Positions 42,708-48,018 of a stretch of DNA of 64,000 nt are shown in pieces (the first letter of the stretch is position 1; every line of letters begins with the position of its first letter). The position numbers were made by a program, and so were the translations under genes. Below the pieces are notes generated by a model. That model had not been told where the DNA came from, made no database searches, and saw nothing but the letters and a program-made list of their open reading frames with translations. This DNA comes from an uncultured Flavobacteriaceae bacterium (GTDB taxonomy: Bacteria > Bacteroidota > Bacteroidia > Flavobacteriales > Flavobacteriaceae). Location: positions 62,001 to 126,000 of the forward strand of contig CALTCK010000008.1 of the NCBI GenBank assembly GCA_943842625.1, in the 5' to 3' direction.

Positions 42708-42762
42708 TAATTAAAATGAATCTATTAAATCATTAATTTACAATTATTTACATAAAAAATTC

Positions 42763-42791
42763 TTGTCTATTAAATAAAAAGAGTACTTTTG
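42763..42791 (+). promoter_or_regulatory. Promoter of the MerR/CarH-like gene (TTG-N18-TACTTTTG)
   Basis: TTG at 42763-42765 and TACTTTTG at 42784-42791 are separated by 18 nt. The ATG at 42801 is only 9 nt after the box, so the transcript is predicted to be leaderless or nearly so. Confidence 0.75.
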
Positions 42792-42800
42792 TTTGATAAA

Positions 42801-43727
42801 ATGGACAAATTGATAAACAAGATTAAAGACACTTTCACCATTCAGGATTTAGAAATCTTGACTGGGATAAAGGCGCACACCATTCGAATTTGGGAGAAGC
42901 GTTATGAACTCCTAAGTCCGACACGCCTCAACAGAAATGTTAGGACCTATGCTATCACAGATTTACAAAAAATATTAAACGTTACCCTTCTTTACAAAAG
43001 CGGATACAAAATCTCAAAAATATCTAAACTATCTGATAATCAAATAGCTGATGAAACAAAAGCCTTTGCCTTAAATGATTTTGCTAATACTTACGAAATC
43101 AATTCTTTAATCATATGCATGTATACCTTTGATCAAAATTTATTTCATGAAATATATGATCAACAAAGTAAAAAAATAACTTTTAGAGAGATATTTACCA
43201 ATACTTATATCCCACTACTTAACCATCTAGGCTTACTTTGGCAAACTGATTCTCTTAAACCTGCACATGAACATTTTGTGTCCAATTTAATCTACCAAAA
43301 AATTGCACTTAATATTGCTAAAATTCCAGTCAACAAAAAATCAAATAACCCTATAAACGTTTTGTTTTTGCCTTACGGCGAGATCCATGAATTAGGGCTT
43401 TTGTTTTTAAATTACTATCTAAAATTAGTAGGTGAAGAGGTAATTTACCTAGGCAAAAGCATTCCATTTGATAATTTATTTTACTTGAATTCTCAAATAA
43501 AGAATATCACTTGGATCACTTATTTTATGATTGATAAAACCGTTGAAGAAAAAGACGAATTTACTCTTAGCGTTGCTAAACTATTAGAGCACACTAAGAA
43601 TAAGTGTATAATAGTAGGAAATATTTGGGATGATTACAAAAAGGCCAATACCAACAATCAAATTATCTTTAAAGATAAGCTAGAAGAACTAGTATCGGTA
43701 AACGAAGTTAAGCTTTCCGTAATTTAA
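42801..43727 (+). CDS. MerR-family regulator with B12-binding domain (CarH/LitR-like)
   Basis: A 308-residue regulator. An N-terminal MerR winged helix (FTIQDLEILTGIKAHTIRIW, residues 12-31, through about 80) is followed by a helical cap and a Rossmann-like cobalamin domain. The cap carries the CarH motif W-x9-EH (Trp147, Glu157-His158). The B12 motif ExHxxG is GEIHELG, with His196 as predicted lower cobalt ligand. In Thermus CarH, as I recall, a His after the Trp binds cobalt after illumination; here that residue is Gln148. Such proteins repress carotenoid genes in the dark with adenosylcobalamin. The ATG at 42801 is chosen because an in-frame TTG upstream lies inside the -7 box. The gene is followed by its own terminator and then crtI. 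Confidence 0.88.
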   Translation: MDKLINKIKDTFTIQDLEILTGIKAHTIRIWEKRYELLSPTRLNRNVRTYAITDLQKILNVTLLYKSGYKISKISKLSDNQIADETKAFALNDFANTYEINSLIICMYTFDQNLFHEIYDQQSKKITFREIFTNTYIPLLNHLGLLWQTDSLKPAHEHFVSNLIYQKIALNIAKIPVNKKSNNPINVLFLPYGEIHELGLLFLNYYLKLVGEEVIYLGKSIPFDNLFYLNSQIKNITWITYFMIDKTVEEKDEFTLSVAKLLEHTKNKCIIVGNIWDDYKKANTNNQIIFKDKLEELVSVNEVKLSVI

Positions 43728-43754: not shown

Positions 43755-43780
43755 AAGGATGAATTTTTCATCCTTTTTTT
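43755..43780 (+). terminator. Intrinsic terminator after the MerR/CarH-like gene
   Basis: AAGGATGAA (43755-43763), loop TTT and TTCATCCTT (43767-43775), then a T run. It separates the regulator transcript from the crt operon. Confidence 0.9.
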
Positions 43781-43827
43781 ATTCTCAATATATTATATAA
43801 GAGCAATTTAATTTATAAATATAAAAA

Positions 43828-43860
43828 TGTTTAACAAAAAGTTAAATTTGTTTAACAAAA
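43828..43860. promoter_or_regulatory. Candidate operator: phased TTTAAC half-sites upstream of crtI
   Basis: TGTTTAACAAAA occurs twice (43828-43839 and 43849-43860), exactly 21 bp apart. An inverted copy GTTAAA lies between (43841-43846). This gives three half-sites at 10-11 bp steps, one helical turn each. The array overlaps a TTG that could be the -33 element of the crt promoter. Thermus CarH also binds repeats of about 11 bp over the -35 region, so the MerR/CarH-like protein is the natural candidate ligand. Confidence 0.55.
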
Positions 43861-43881
43861 TATTTTTTTATTAGATATTTG
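43848..43881 (+). promoter_or_regulatory. Candidate crt promoter (TTG-N23-GATATTTG)
   Basis: TTG at 43848-43850 and GATATTTG at 43874-43881, 23 nt apart, with one mismatch to TAnnTTTG. A start near 43888 would give a leader of about 128 nt containing the hairpin at 43954-43988. Confidence 0.4.
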
Positions 43882-43953
43882 TGAAAATTAAAAAAAATAA
43901 CCATTAATAAAAACTTAAAAATACAAAGAATTGTTGTTAGGTTTTGATTGAAG

Positions 43954-43988
43954 CCCCTCATTGAAAGCAATTTCTAGAGGGGTTTTTT
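43954..43988 (+). terminator. Terminator-like hairpin in the crtI leader
   Basis: CCCCTC (43954-43959) pairs with GAGGGG (43977-43982), with a small inner ATTG/CAAT stem, and is followed directly by TTTTTT. It lies 28 nt before the crtI ATG. It may attenuate crt transcription, or end a small RNA of about 100 nt that starts at the promoter near 43888. Confidence 0.7.
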
Positions 43989-44003
43989 AATAAATTAATT
44001 ATC

Positions 44004-44011
44004 TATATTTG
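44004..44011 (+). promoter_or_regulatory. -7 box TATATTTG immediately before crtI
   Basis: An exact TAnnTTTG match ending 4 nt before the crtI ATG. If used, the mRNA would start at or next to the start codon (leaderless). No TTG is present 17-23 nt upstream, so activity may need a regulator. Confidence 0.45.
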
Positions 44012-44015
44012 AAAC

Positions 44016-45485
44016 ATGAGTAAAACTATAAACATCCTGGGTTCTGGATTTTCATCTTTAGCAGCGTCTTGTTATCTAGCAAAGGCAGGTCACAAAGTAA
44101 CTGTTTTTGAAAAAAACAGTCAAATAGGAGGAAGGGCAAGGCAATATAAAAAAGATGGATTTTTATTTGATATGGGGCCAACATGGTACTGGATGCCAGA
44201 TGTTTTTGAACGCTTTTTTAACGACTTTAATAAAAAACCATCGGATTATTATCAATTAGAAAAATTAAATCCTGCATATGAGGTTTATTTTGGGATTGGC
44301 GATTCGGCAATTATACCAGACAGTCTAGATCAAATTTATTCTTTATTTGAGAAAGAAGAAAAAGGCTCGTCGTTGCATTTAAAAAAATTCTTAAAGCAAG
44401 CAAAAAACAATTACGATGTCGCAGTGAAAGATCTCGTTTATAGACCAGGCGTATCACCTTTAGAATTGATCACTCCAAAAACAATAAACAAGTTAAATCA
44501 ATTGTTTTTTGATATTCGTAGTCAAATACAAAAAAGGTTTAACAATCCACGACTCATTAAAATTTTAGAGTTCCCTGTATTGTTTCTTGGCGCTAAACCC
44601 GGAAACACTCCTGCCATGTATAATTTTATGAACTGGGCAGATTTTGGTTTAGGTACTTGGCACCCAACTGGAGGGATGTTTGAGGTAATAAAAGCGATGG
44701 AGTCCTTAGCTAAAGAGCTGGGTGTTACTTTTAAAACAAATGCTAACGTTGAAAAAATTAAGGTAGTGAATGGTAGCGTTAAGGGTATTGTTGTAAACGG
44801 AGAGTCTCACAATAGTGCCGACGTCGTGCTAAGTGGAGCAGATTATCACCATACCGAAACATTATTAGAGGCTCAATATAGGCAATATTCAGAAGCGTAT
44901 TGGAACAAGAAAACGTTTGCACCATCTTCCTTACTTTTTTACGTAGGGTTTAATAAAAAACTCAAGAATGTTTCTCATCATACCTTGTTTTTTGATGAAG
45001 AATTCGATTCGCACGCTGAGTACATATACGATACACCTTCTTGGCCTAAAGACCCGCTTTTTTACGCGAGCTTTCCAAGTATTTCTGATAATGCTTTTGC
45101 ACCAAAAGAAAAAGAAGCCGCCACTTTTTTAATACCTATAGCTTCAGGAATTGAAGATACTGAAGCTCACAGAGAAAAATATTTTAATATTATCCTCGAT
45201 CGATTAGAAAAATTAACCAAACAAAAACTAAAGGACGATGTATTGTTTGTAAAGTCTTACTGCATTAATGATTTTGTTGAAGATTATAACTCTTATAAAG
45301 GCAATGCTTATGGGTTAGCCAACACACTTACACAAACGGCATTTTTAAGGCCAAAAATTAAAAGTAAGAAAGTAAAAAATTTGTATTTTACAGGACAATT
45401 AACAGTACCCGGTCCTGGTGTTCCGCCCGCATTAATTTCAGGAAAAATAGCAGCAGAATCCATATTAAAGCACTTTAAATACTGA
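44016..45485 (+). CDS. crtI: Phytoene desaturase
   Basis: A 489-residue CrtI-type FAD enzyme that desaturates phytoene to lycopene at the membrane. INILGSGFSSLAASCYLAKA is the dinucleotide-binding motif, followed by VFEKNSQIGGRARQYKKDG and FDMGPTWYWMPDVF. The C-terminal signature NLYFTGQLTVPGPGVPPAL is typical of bacterial CrtI. It is the first gene of the crtI-crtB-crtZ-crtY-SRPBCC operon, with gaps of 1-27 nt or a 4-nt overlap between later genes. The leader contains candidate operator and attenuator elements. Confidence 0.95.
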   Translation: MSKTINILGSGFSSLAASCYLAKAGHKVTVFEKNSQIGGRARQYKKDGFLFDMGPTWYWMPDVFERFFNDFNKKPSDYYQLEKLNPAYEVYFGIGDSAIIPDSLDQIYSLFEKEEKGSSLHLKKFLKQAKNNYDVAVKDLVYRPGVSPLELITPKTINKLNQLFFDIRSQIQKRFNNPRLIKILEFPVLFLGAKPGNTPAMYNFMNWADFGLGTWHPTGGMFEVIKAMESLAKELGVTFKTNANVEKIKVVNGSVKGIVVNGESHNSADVVLSGADYHHTETLLEAQYRQYSEAYWNKKTFAPSSLLFYVGFNKKLKNVSHHTLFFDEEFDSHAEYIYDTPSWPKDPLFYASFPSISDNAFAPKEKEAATFLIPIASGIEDTEAHREKYFNIILDRLEKLTKQKLKDDVLFVKSYCINDFVEDYNSYKGNAYGLANTLTQTAFLRPKIKSKKVKNLYFTGQLTVPGPGVPPALISGKIAAESILKHFKY

Positions 45486-45510: not shown

Positions 45511-46350
45511 ATGAAACAACTATATGACAGTATTTCCAGTGAAAGTTCAAAAATTATCACTAAAAAATACAGCACTTCCTTTTCAATAGCAGTCAATCTA
45601 TTATCTTCTAATATTCGTGAGGCAATATATAACATATACGGATTTGTTAGAGTTGCAGATGAAATAGTAGATAGTTTTGAAGAGTACCCTAAGGAAGAAT
45701 TATTAGATAGATTTGAAGAAGAATATAGATATTCTTTAAAAGTTGGTATAAGCACAAACCCTGTTATTAACGCATTTCAAGGAACTGTTTCAAAATACAA
45801 CATTGATCATGCTCTTGTGGATTCCTTTTTAAAAAGCATGAGAACAGATTTAGAAAAACAAAATTATGACAATCAGGAGGAGATAGATAATTATATTTAT
45901 GGCTCAGCAGATGTTGTTGGGCTAATGTGTTTAAAAGTTTTTGTTCAAGGTGATGATGAGAAGTACAATAACTTAAAAGAGCCTGCCATGAAATTAGGTT
46001 CTGCATTTCAAAAAGTAAATTTTTTAAGAGACTTAAATGAGGATTTTGAAAACTTAAATCGATCGTATTTTCCTAATATCAACCCTAACAATTTCACAGA
46101 GGCCGATAAATCTAGAGTCTTACTTGAAATAAATAACGACTTTGAAGAAGCTTACAAGGGTATTGTAAAGTTACCTAAGGAGGCAAAGCTTGCTGTTTAT
46201 GTTGCTTACAAATATTACTTTAATTTGTTACATAAGATAGAAAGAACTCCTTCAAAAATATTAAAAGAAAAACGAATACGAGTTTCCAACCCAAAAAAAA
46301 TGGCGCTTTTGGTAGAATCGTATTTTAATTTTAAGCTTAATTTAGTCTAG
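45511..46350 (+). CDS. crtB: Phytoene synthase
   Basis: A 279-residue squalene/phytoene synthase that condenses two geranylgeranyl-PP molecules to phytoene. Both Asp-rich substrate-binding motifs are visible: VADEIVDSFEE near residue 50, and FLRDLNEDFENLNRSYFP near residue 175. YIYGSADVVGLMCLKVF lies between, as in CrtB. The gene starts 25 nt after crtI. Confidence 0.95.
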   Translation: MKQLYDSISSESSKIITKKYSTSFSIAVNLLSSNIREAIYNIYGFVRVADEIVDSFEEYPKEELLDRFEEEYRYSLKVGISTNPVINAFQGTVSKYNIDHALVDSFLKSMRTDLEKQNYDNQEEIDNYIYGSADVVGLMCLKVFVQGDDEKYNNLKEPAMKLGSAFQKVNFLRDLNEDFENLNRSYFPNINPNNFTEADKSRVLLEINNDFEEAYKGIVKLPKEAKLAVYVAYKYYFNLLHKIERTPSKILKEKRIRVSNPKKMALLVESYFNFKLNLV

Positions 46351-46377: not shown

Positions 46378-46842
46378 ATGACAATTACATATTATATACT
46401 GATAACTATAATCACCTACACGGGTATGGAAGGAGTTACTTGGTTCGTTCATAAATATGTTATGCACGGTTTTTTGTGGGCACTTCATGAAGATCATCAC
46501 CAGCCGAGATATCAGCATGTTTTCGAGAAAAACGATACATTTTTTGTGATTGGAGCCATTCCAAGTATTGCGCTGTTTTATTTTGGTGTTCATCCAGAAT
46601 TAAATTATAAGTTTTTTATTGGTTTAGGAATCTTATTTTATGGGATTACTTATTTTATGGTTCACGATGTATTAATTCATCAACGGTTTAAATGGTTTAA
46701 AAACACAAAAAATAGTTATTTAATAGGTTTGCGTAAGGCACATAAAATACACCACAAACACCTTGGAAAAGAAGATGGCGAATGTTTTGGAATGCTAAAT
46801 GTTCCAAAAAAATATTTTAAGAAACCCTTTTCAACTAAATGA
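46378..46842 (+). CDS. crtZ: Beta-carotene hydroxylase
   Basis: A 154-residue di-iron membrane hydroxylase of the CrtZ type that adds 3- and 3'-hydroxyl groups to beta-carotene to make zeaxanthin. Histidine clusters HKYVMH, HEDHHQ, HDVLIHQR and HKIHHKH are in the canonical order among about four hydrophobic helices. Its stop codon overlaps the start of the cyclase gene by 4 nt (ATGA), indicating coupled translation. Confidence 0.94.
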   Translation: MTITYYILITIITYTGMEGVTWFVHKYVMHGFLWALHEDHHQPRYQHVFEKNDTFFVIGAIPSIALFYFGVHPELNYKFFIGLGILFYGITYFMVHDVLIHQRFKWFKNTKNSYLIGLRKAHKIHHKHLGKEDGECFGMLNVPKKYFKKPFSTK

Positions 46843-47531
46843 CACCGCTCTACCTTTATATACTTTTCTTTTCTATTGCTGTTCCTTTACTTTATACCAT
46901 AATTTTTAAAGACTTTATAAAGTATTGGAAGTATTTTACTATTTCCACAGTATTAGTAGCTACAATTTTTTTGATATGGGATTATTATTTTACAGCAATT
47001 GGTGTTTGGTCGTTTAATTATGACTATTGCATAGGGATTGAATTCTTTGGCATGCCCCTTGAAGAATGGCTATTCTTTTTAATTATTCCCTTTTGTAGTT
47101 TGTTTATACATTATTGTGCTATCACCGTAAATCCAAATTTTAAATTTAATAAAAAAGCTTCACTGTACTTTACTTTAATTATTATGGCTTTAGTTACCAC
47201 CGTTGCTATTGTTAATATTACAAAGTATTATACCGCAGTTAATTTTCTTTTTTTAGCCATGGTATTATTTCTAGGCTTATTATTTTTTAGAACTCACCTC
47301 CAAAAATTTTATGCTAGTTTTATTATTATACTAATTCCTTTTTTCATAGTGAACGGCATTTTAACAGGTTCTTTTATTGAGACTCCTATTGTTAGTTATA
47401 ATAATTTAGAAAATTTAGGAATTCGCCTTTTTACAATCCCAATTGAAGACATTGGCTACGCTTTTTCAATGCTATTTGGAAATCTTATGATTTTTGAAAC
47501 CTTAAAAAAAAGACTCCATAAAACAACTTAA
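46839..47531 (+). CDS. Lycopene beta-cyclase (CrtYcd-type fused membrane cyclase)
   Basis: A 230-residue integral membrane protein with about seven helices, made of two homologous halves as in fused CrtYc-CrtYd cyclases of Bacteroidota, archaea and fungi. The acidic motif of each half is visible: GMPLEEWLFFLIIPF in the first and FTIPIEDIGYAF in the second. It would cyclise both ends of lycopene to beta-carotene. It lacks the FAD motif of CrtY/CrtL flavoprotein cyclases. Overlap with crtZ and a 1-nt gap to the next gene confirm the operon. Confidence 0.88.
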   Translation: MTPLYLYILFFSIAVPLLYTIIFKDFIKYWKYFTISTVLVATIFLIWDYYFTAIGVWSFNYDYCIGIEFFGMPLEEWLFFLIIPFCSLFIHYCAITVNPNFKFNKKASLYFTLIIMALVTTVAIVNITKYYTAVNFLFLAMVLFLGLLFFRTHLQKFYASFIIILIPFFIVNGILTGSFIETPIVSYNNLENLGIRLFTIPIEDIGYAFSMLFGNLMIFETLKKRLHKTT

Positions 47532-47532
47532 A

Positions 47533-48018
47533 ATGTCCCTATCTATTAAAAGTCATTCTAATATTTTTACGTTAAAATCGGAAGTTACTTTACCGATGTC
47601 AACTTCAAAAGCTTGGGATTTTTTTAGCTCTCCAAATAATCTTTCAAAAATCACACCTGCAGAGATGAATTTTTTAATTACTTCGGGGCCACCAAAAAAA
47701 GTATACGCTGGACAAATAATAAGCTATAAGGTCAACGTGTTAAAGTATTTTCGATTGAATTGGGTAACCGAAATTACTCAGGTAGAATTTGAAGAATACT
47801 TTATAGATGAACAACGATTTGGACCTTATAAAATGTGGCATCATGAGCATTTGTTTGAGTCTGTTGATACTAATAACTGCAAAATGACCGATATTGTTAG
47901 TTATAAATTACCGTACGGGCTACTTGGTAAGTTAGGTCACAAGCTTTTTATAAAAAAACAGTTGATGTCCATTTTCGAGTACCGAACACAGCAAATTAAA
48001 AGCCTCGGAATCTCTTAA
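47533..48018 (+). CDS. SRPBCC (START/Bet v1-like) ligand-binding protein
   Basis: A 161-residue protein of the SRPBCC superfamily, whose fold holds hydrophobic ligands. The pattern is SEVTLPMSTSKAWDFFSSPNNLSKITPAEM at the start (a helix-grip opening), GPYKMWHHEHLFE in the middle, and a long C-terminal helix (FEYRTQQIKSLG). It is the last gene of the crt operon, 1 nt behind the cyclase. A role in carrying or modifying carotenoid or another lipid is possible from context, but no function is established by the sequence. Confidence 0.8.
   Translation: MSLSIKSHSNIFTLKSEVTLPMSTSKAWDFFSSPNNLSKITPAEMNFLITSGPPKKVYAGQIISYKVNVLKYFRLNWVTEITQVEFEEYFIDEQRFGPYKMWHHEHLFESVDTNNCKMTDIVSYKLPYGLLGKLGHKLFIKKQLMSIFEYRTQQIKSLGIS

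Follow-up and report, generated by a model that had tools for sequence, protein, structure and literature searches.

A predicted CarH-type B12 photoreceptor without the His132 ligand, beside the carotenoid genes of an uncultured Flavobacteriaceae bacterium

The gene at positions 42801 to 43727 of the window (the whole 64,000-nucleotide stretch of DNA analyzed, from an uncultured marine Flavobacteriaceae bacterium; all features given by window position lie on the forward strand) encodes a MerR/cobalamin regulator of 308 amino acids. Its assignment as a CarH-type B12 photoreceptor, with cobalamin binding and a light response predicted, is supported by full-length kinship to CarH of Thermus thermophilus (TtCarH), a complete published photosensing signature, order-wide linkage to carotenoid (crt) genes and the presence of genes for adenosylcobalamin (AdoCbl) supply; the same evidence bears out a sequence-only reading of this DNA, which had proposed a CarH-like candidate here. 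New in this work is a conserved candidate operator at 43828-43860, in front of crtI, carrying a GTTTAACAAAA box. We consider it probable that the regulator is an AdoCbl-dependent photoreceptor-repressor that sits on these boxes as an oligomer in the dark, is released by light, and has a light state other than a bis-His complex. In the dark, AdoCbl would be bound base-off with His196 as the lower cobalt ligand, while Trp147, Glu157 and His158 would hold the adenosyl group. The dark oligomer would occupy the boxes at 43828-43860 and block the crtI promoter, and, elsewhere in the genome, the promoters of proteorhodopsin/blh and a photolyase operon would probably be blocked likewise. Blue or green light would then break the Co-C bond, the adenosyl group would leave, the oligomer would disassemble into its non-bis-His light state, and the genes would be expressed. 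This reading rests on homology, the conserved pocket, synteny, the AdoCbl supply genes and the conserved boxes; from these we infer AdoCbl binding, the light response, repression and the regulator's own binding to the boxes.

Translation from the conserved ATG gives the 308 residues, the open reading frame listing beginning four codons upstream at a TTG. The N terminus matches Pfam MerR_1 (PF13411; E = 9.5e-11), as expected from the MerR DNA-binding domain described earlier, and a four-helix cap matches B12-binding_2 (PF02607; E = 2.8e-6). TtCarH chains are the best solved relatives of the regulator in the PDB (E = 5.5e-12). Alignment of a 62-sequence family alignment to TtCarH with hhalign was full-length and collinear (99.8% probability, E = 1.6e-29; TtCarH reference sequence checked against PDB 3whp/5c8d) and included the Rossmann half, so the helix-bundle-only architecture of class II LitR was rejected for this protein. 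A family-profile search of the PDB placed CarH at the top (E = 6.8e-25) and also matched photocobilins 8j2w/8j2x and, more weakly, CtMerR (E = 1.6e-6). An AlphaFold model built from four sequences reached a pLDDT of 47 and was not used for fold searches. The regulator scored 55.3 bits against the NCBIfam CarH equivalog NF052513, under the curated cut-off of 400 (TtCarH control, 510.2 bits), and had no match to Pfam B12-binding (PF02310), which detected the TtCarH control at E = 1.4e-5. It falls outside the NCBIfam CarH equivalog while belonging to the broader CarH/LitR family. The PF02310 miss and the NF052513 shortfall, together with a missing His132 and a degraded GG motif, count against the CarH-type reading.

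On the TtCarH alignment, W147 corresponds to W131, Q148 to H132, E157/H158 to E141/H142, E194 to E175, H196 to H177 and G199 to G180, so that the residue numbers given earlier for Trp147, Glu157, His158 and His196 are exact. The cap motif spans residues 144-158 (43230-43274; G144xxW147, Q148, E157, H158), and GEIHELG, with the predicted cobalt ligand His196, spans residues 193-199 (43377-43397). The published light-response signature of cobalamin domains, made up of GxxW, EH, GxxH and GxxxP (PMC11796333), is complete here, as G144LLW147, E157H158, G193EIH196 and G218KSIP222. Among the 62 Flavobacteriales homologues (Thermus numbering), G128, W131, E141 and E175 are invariant (62/62 each), and H142 and H177 occur in 61/62 and 60/62, respectively; the first G of GxxH is frequently N or D, making this element looser than published. 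The GG tail-binding motif of the Rossmann half is reduced to V272-G273, its second G kept in 47 of the 62. At the His132 position, Gln occurs in 42 homologues, Leu in 16, Arg in 2, and Gly and Ile in 1 each, and His in none of the 62. The earlier observation of Gln instead of His after Trp147 thus holds and extends to the absence of His across the sampled family, and the caution it voiced over the photochemistry was well placed.

In TtCarH, His132 becomes the upper cobalt ligand after light exposure, and the H132A variant photolyses yet stays mostly tetrameric in the light (PMC10442372). With Gln148, the regulator cannot reach the bis-His light state that Thermus CarH makes with His132. An alternative hypothesis is that the regulator binds cobalamin but reports B12 status or redox state, undergoing photolysis without an oligomer switch because His132 is lacking. 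The family-wide absence of this residue, the behavior of H132A and the degraded GG motif all fit such a protein. We nevertheless regard it as unlikely, because CtMerR, which has Arg here, changes from a tetramer in the dark to a monomer in the light by native mass spectrometry (PMC11796333), because the adenosyl-contacting W, E and H are retained as part of the light-responsive signature, and because common boxes sit at photolyase and rhodopsin promoters. The photocobilin SasPcob, with a natural Gln at the His132 position, has a water- or hydroxide-ligated Co(III) light state (PMC11796333, PMC10979010). Given the CtMerR and SasPcob precedents, the Flavobacteriales family is plausibly photoactive without bis-His ligation, and its His132-less members probably sense light through a somewhat different B12 chemistry.

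The cell appears to import vitamin B12 and has a gene for making the adenosyl form. The genome encodes a PduO-type cobalamin adenosyltransferase (PF01923), and a cobalamin riboswitch immediately precedes a TonB-dependent receptor gene, from which a gene for a periplasmic binding protein diverges. Cobalamin-domain genes are also present, some of the size of methylmalonyl-CoA mutase (judged by size only). Cobalamin-domain ORFs that match in size (469 and 499 amino acids) lie on two contigs (G000:C1:218527-221102 and G000:C15:9370-11945), for which a duplicate and assembly contamination are candidate readings. Across 148 genomes, PF01923 was found in 65 of the 67 with a full-length regulator vs 55 of the 81 without one (Fisher 2e-6, a figure inflated by shared ancestry and reduced endosymbionts), and both regulator genomes that lack it are incomplete. 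In two relatives (loci L083 and L085; genomes G026 and G014), the lower-ligand His of the regulator is replaced by Asn (H177N); an adenosyltransferase is nevertheless encoded in both genomes.

Comparison of the regulator with those of three congeners gave dN of 0.016-0.071 and dS of 0.51, 1.8 and 2.5, which indicates purifying selection. This selection, the order-wide homologues and the near-invariant motif residues in 62 of them show that the open reading frame is not a chance one. Roughly half of the sampled Flavobacteriales genomes have a homologue (full-length in 67/148), and by tblastn synteny the regulator lies beside crtI-crtB in most relatives. In many of these, crtI is 5-130 bp downstream, and the regulator probably opens the crt operon; a large group (L066-L085) has a gap of about 620-1170 bp, with space for an extra gene, and in certain small-genome lineages regulator and crtI are divergent. 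Small-genome Flavobacteriales also carry short relatives of about 200-236 amino acids with the MerR domain and helix bundle only, like class II LitR (G126:C3:36516, G061:C3:16542, G076:C2:152441, G045:C15:19447, G106:C18:1362, G131:C3:234601 and G117:C36:2971). The constraint on the pocket residues across the regulator family bears on a second alternative, that the regulator is a B12-independent repressor taking its light input from a partner protein. Such repressors exist: Myxococcus CarA retains the B12 motif without needing B12 (PMC8156234), and class II LitRs rely on a LOV partner (PMC9758184). The regulator, however, has the Rossmann half that class II proteins lack, and no antirepressor or LOV gene was seen adjoining it; with the pocket under constraint as well, we consider this alternative unlikely too, slightly more so than the B12-status one. 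Within the literature collection searched, no paper characterizes a Bacteroidota CarH; in Chryseobacterium lacus, carotenoids are light induced, and a CarA/LitR-like gene was speculated (PMC7064467).

Downstream of the regulator lie crtI, encoding a phytoene desaturase (44016-45485; NCBIfam CrtID); crtB, encoding phytoene synthase (45511-46350; Pfam SQS_PSY, E = 7.8e-47); a crtZ-like beta-carotene hydroxylase gene (46378-46842), recognized by its histidine boxes and without a Pfam match; and a crtY-like gene for a CarR-type lycopene cyclase (46839-47531; Pfam Lycopene_cyc, E = 1.4e-34; TIGR03462). A small ORF adjoining crtY (47533-48018) has no family match in Pfam or NCBIfam and recurs beside crt genes and the regulator in relatives (tblastn synteny). 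The regulator had been described as directly upstream of four zeaxanthin genes. Its position before crtI-crtB-crtZ-crtY stands. An intrinsic terminator conserved in congeners (43755-43781; 9-bp stem, 3-nt loop and T run) follows the regulator, and this terminator (43755-43775 within the feature) and the 288-bp gap to crtI make the regulator a separate transcription unit in the genus. Zeaxanthin itself is presumptive, because the crtI product passes the NCBIfam cut-off for bifunctional phytoene desaturase/3,4-desaturase (723.9 vs 640 bits), and the end product may be other than plain zeaxanthin. The Bacteroidota promoter consensus is TTG (-33) and TAnnTTTG (-7). A predicted promoter of this type, kept in four congeners, precedes the regulator at 42762-42791, with TTG at -33 and TACTTTTG at -7; sigma-70 promoter scans gave results at or under the shuffle background.

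The intergenic region between regulator and crtI has diverged among four congeners save for two islands. The first, within the 43800-43900 region, is the candidate operator TGTTTAACAAAAAGTTAAATTTGTTTAACAAAA (43828-43860), in which two copies of GTTTAACAAAA, 21 bp apart, flank an inverted GTTAAA. (G/C)ATATTTG follows it, and GATATTTG at 43874-43881, whose ATATTTG is kept in the four congeners, is the -7-like element of a predicted crt-side promoter. Most MerR proteins are activators, and the region upstream of a -7-like element, where the candidate operator lies, is one where MerR activators also bind. Characterized B12-binding CarH/LitR proteins, however, repress in the dark (PMC8156234), which leaves a light-time activator or antirepressor of crt, in place of a dark repressor, very improbable. 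The pattern of three half-sites occurs once in the 1.94-Mb genome (control, 0). The bare palindrome TTTAAC-N4-6-GTTAAA was at background level (6 in the genome vs 5 with the control reversed); we therefore relied on the longer GTTTAACAAAA box and on its conservation alone. Each GTTTAACAAAA box contains TnnACA (a TTAACA core, twice), and TnnACA is the core of the CarH direct repeats (PMC9304148). In the CarH type of operator, such repeats stand in tandem at 11 bp and overlap the promoter. A search of the candidate operator for strict tandem 11-bp TnnACA repeats found none; the 21-bp spacing with an inverted half-site, in place of such repeats, counts against the CarH-type reading.

In 135 kb of the genome, intergenic GTTTAACAAA has four copies, all at light-gene promoters: two at crtI, one at a photolyase/cryptochrome operon (L112:9226) and one between proteorhodopsin and blh (L112:8210). 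These stretches were partly picked for light genes, which makes the pattern suggestive rather than a test of the whole genome. In two congeners the photolyase copy forms a conserved island. The surrounding region (L112:7465-14084; G000:C6) holds proteorhodopsin, the beta-carotene dioxygenase gene blh and a photolyase/cryptochrome/flavin-reductase-like cluster, and their promoter regions have GTTTAACAAA, as crtI does. Among Flavobacteriaceae-type loci, TAnnTTTGTTTA is present in 15 of 19 regulator promoters vs 5 of 123 other genes; the 19 loci are related, so the p-value overstates the contrast. In small-genome lineages whose residue at the His132 position is mostly Leu, all 7 regulator promoters carry TATACA, likewise a TnnACA, against 10 of 42 others. 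The boxes at crtI, photolyase and proteorhodopsin/blh suggest a shared light regulon, which we predict on this basis. At the corresponding locus of the closest relative (L038:7127-8714), the candidate operator is separated from the crtI leader by two DUF4397 genes, and these may be under the same control as crt.

The second island is the leader, of about 95 nt (43923-44015), directly ahead of crtI; it is near-invariant in the congener alignment, although synonymous sites among the congeners are near saturation (dS up to 2.5). It contains a terminator-like hairpin, CCCCTC...GAGGGG followed by T6 (43953-43988), with a fold of -15.5 kcal/mol and kept in four congeners. A second -7-like element, TATATTTG (44004-44011), invariant in four congeners, lies 4 nt before the crtI ATG and has no clear -33 partner. 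The leader had no match in Rfam, a covariance model of it matched only within the genus among the loci covered, and a scan of viral contigs found none. The DUF4397 genes that separate operator from leader in the closest relative indicate that the leader travels with crtI. It may act as an attenuator, mark the end of a small RNA or serve as a separate promoter; a hairpin between the candidate operator and crtI counts against the CarH-type repressor reading.

Arguments on the CarH mechanism come mainly from Thermus, in which the break-up of the tetramer is attributed to His132. With this residue absent in 62 of 62 homologues and the rest of the pocket kept, it can be tested directly whether bis-His ligation is needed. 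We speculate, tentatively, that a His132-free CarH with a water-ligated instead of a bis-His light state serves the whole order Flavobacteriales in running one carotenoid, photolyase and proteorhodopsin regulon through GTTTAACAAA, and that the hairpin leader adds a second gate on crtI in this genus. The shared boxes suggest that in marine bacteria vitamin B12 ties the sensing of light to carotenoids, to DNA repair and to photoheterotrophy based on rhodopsin. For specialists, the interest lies in a family that lacks His132 throughout and in the light regulon predicted from the shared boxes.

Among known systems, CarH of T. thermophilus (PDB 3whp, 5c8d-5c8f) shares with the regulator its domain order, crt linkage and full-length collinear alignment, as well as the W-x9-EH cap, the ExHxxG loop with the lower cobalt ligand and the G-xxx-P loop. 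The regulator differs in having Gln148 for His132 and VG for GG, at about 18% identity, and in boxes 21 bp apart with an inverted site where Thermus has three tandem 11-bp repeats. CtMerR (PDB 8jbs/8jbt; PMC11796333) is likewise a MerR-cobalamin photoreceptor without His132 (Arg), but its DNA-binding domain differs from that of TtCarH and it matches the family profile more weakly. SasPcob (PMC10979010, PMC11796333) shares the natural Gln at the His132 position; unlike the regulator, it carries a biliverdin-binding domain and is not a MerR regulator. In Myxococcus xanthus, CarA (PMC8156234) resembles the regulator described here in joining a MerR domain to a B12 motif, in repressing a crt promoter, as predicted for the regulator, and in having an operator with inverted repeats; it differs in that it does not need B12 and depends on the antirepressor CarS.
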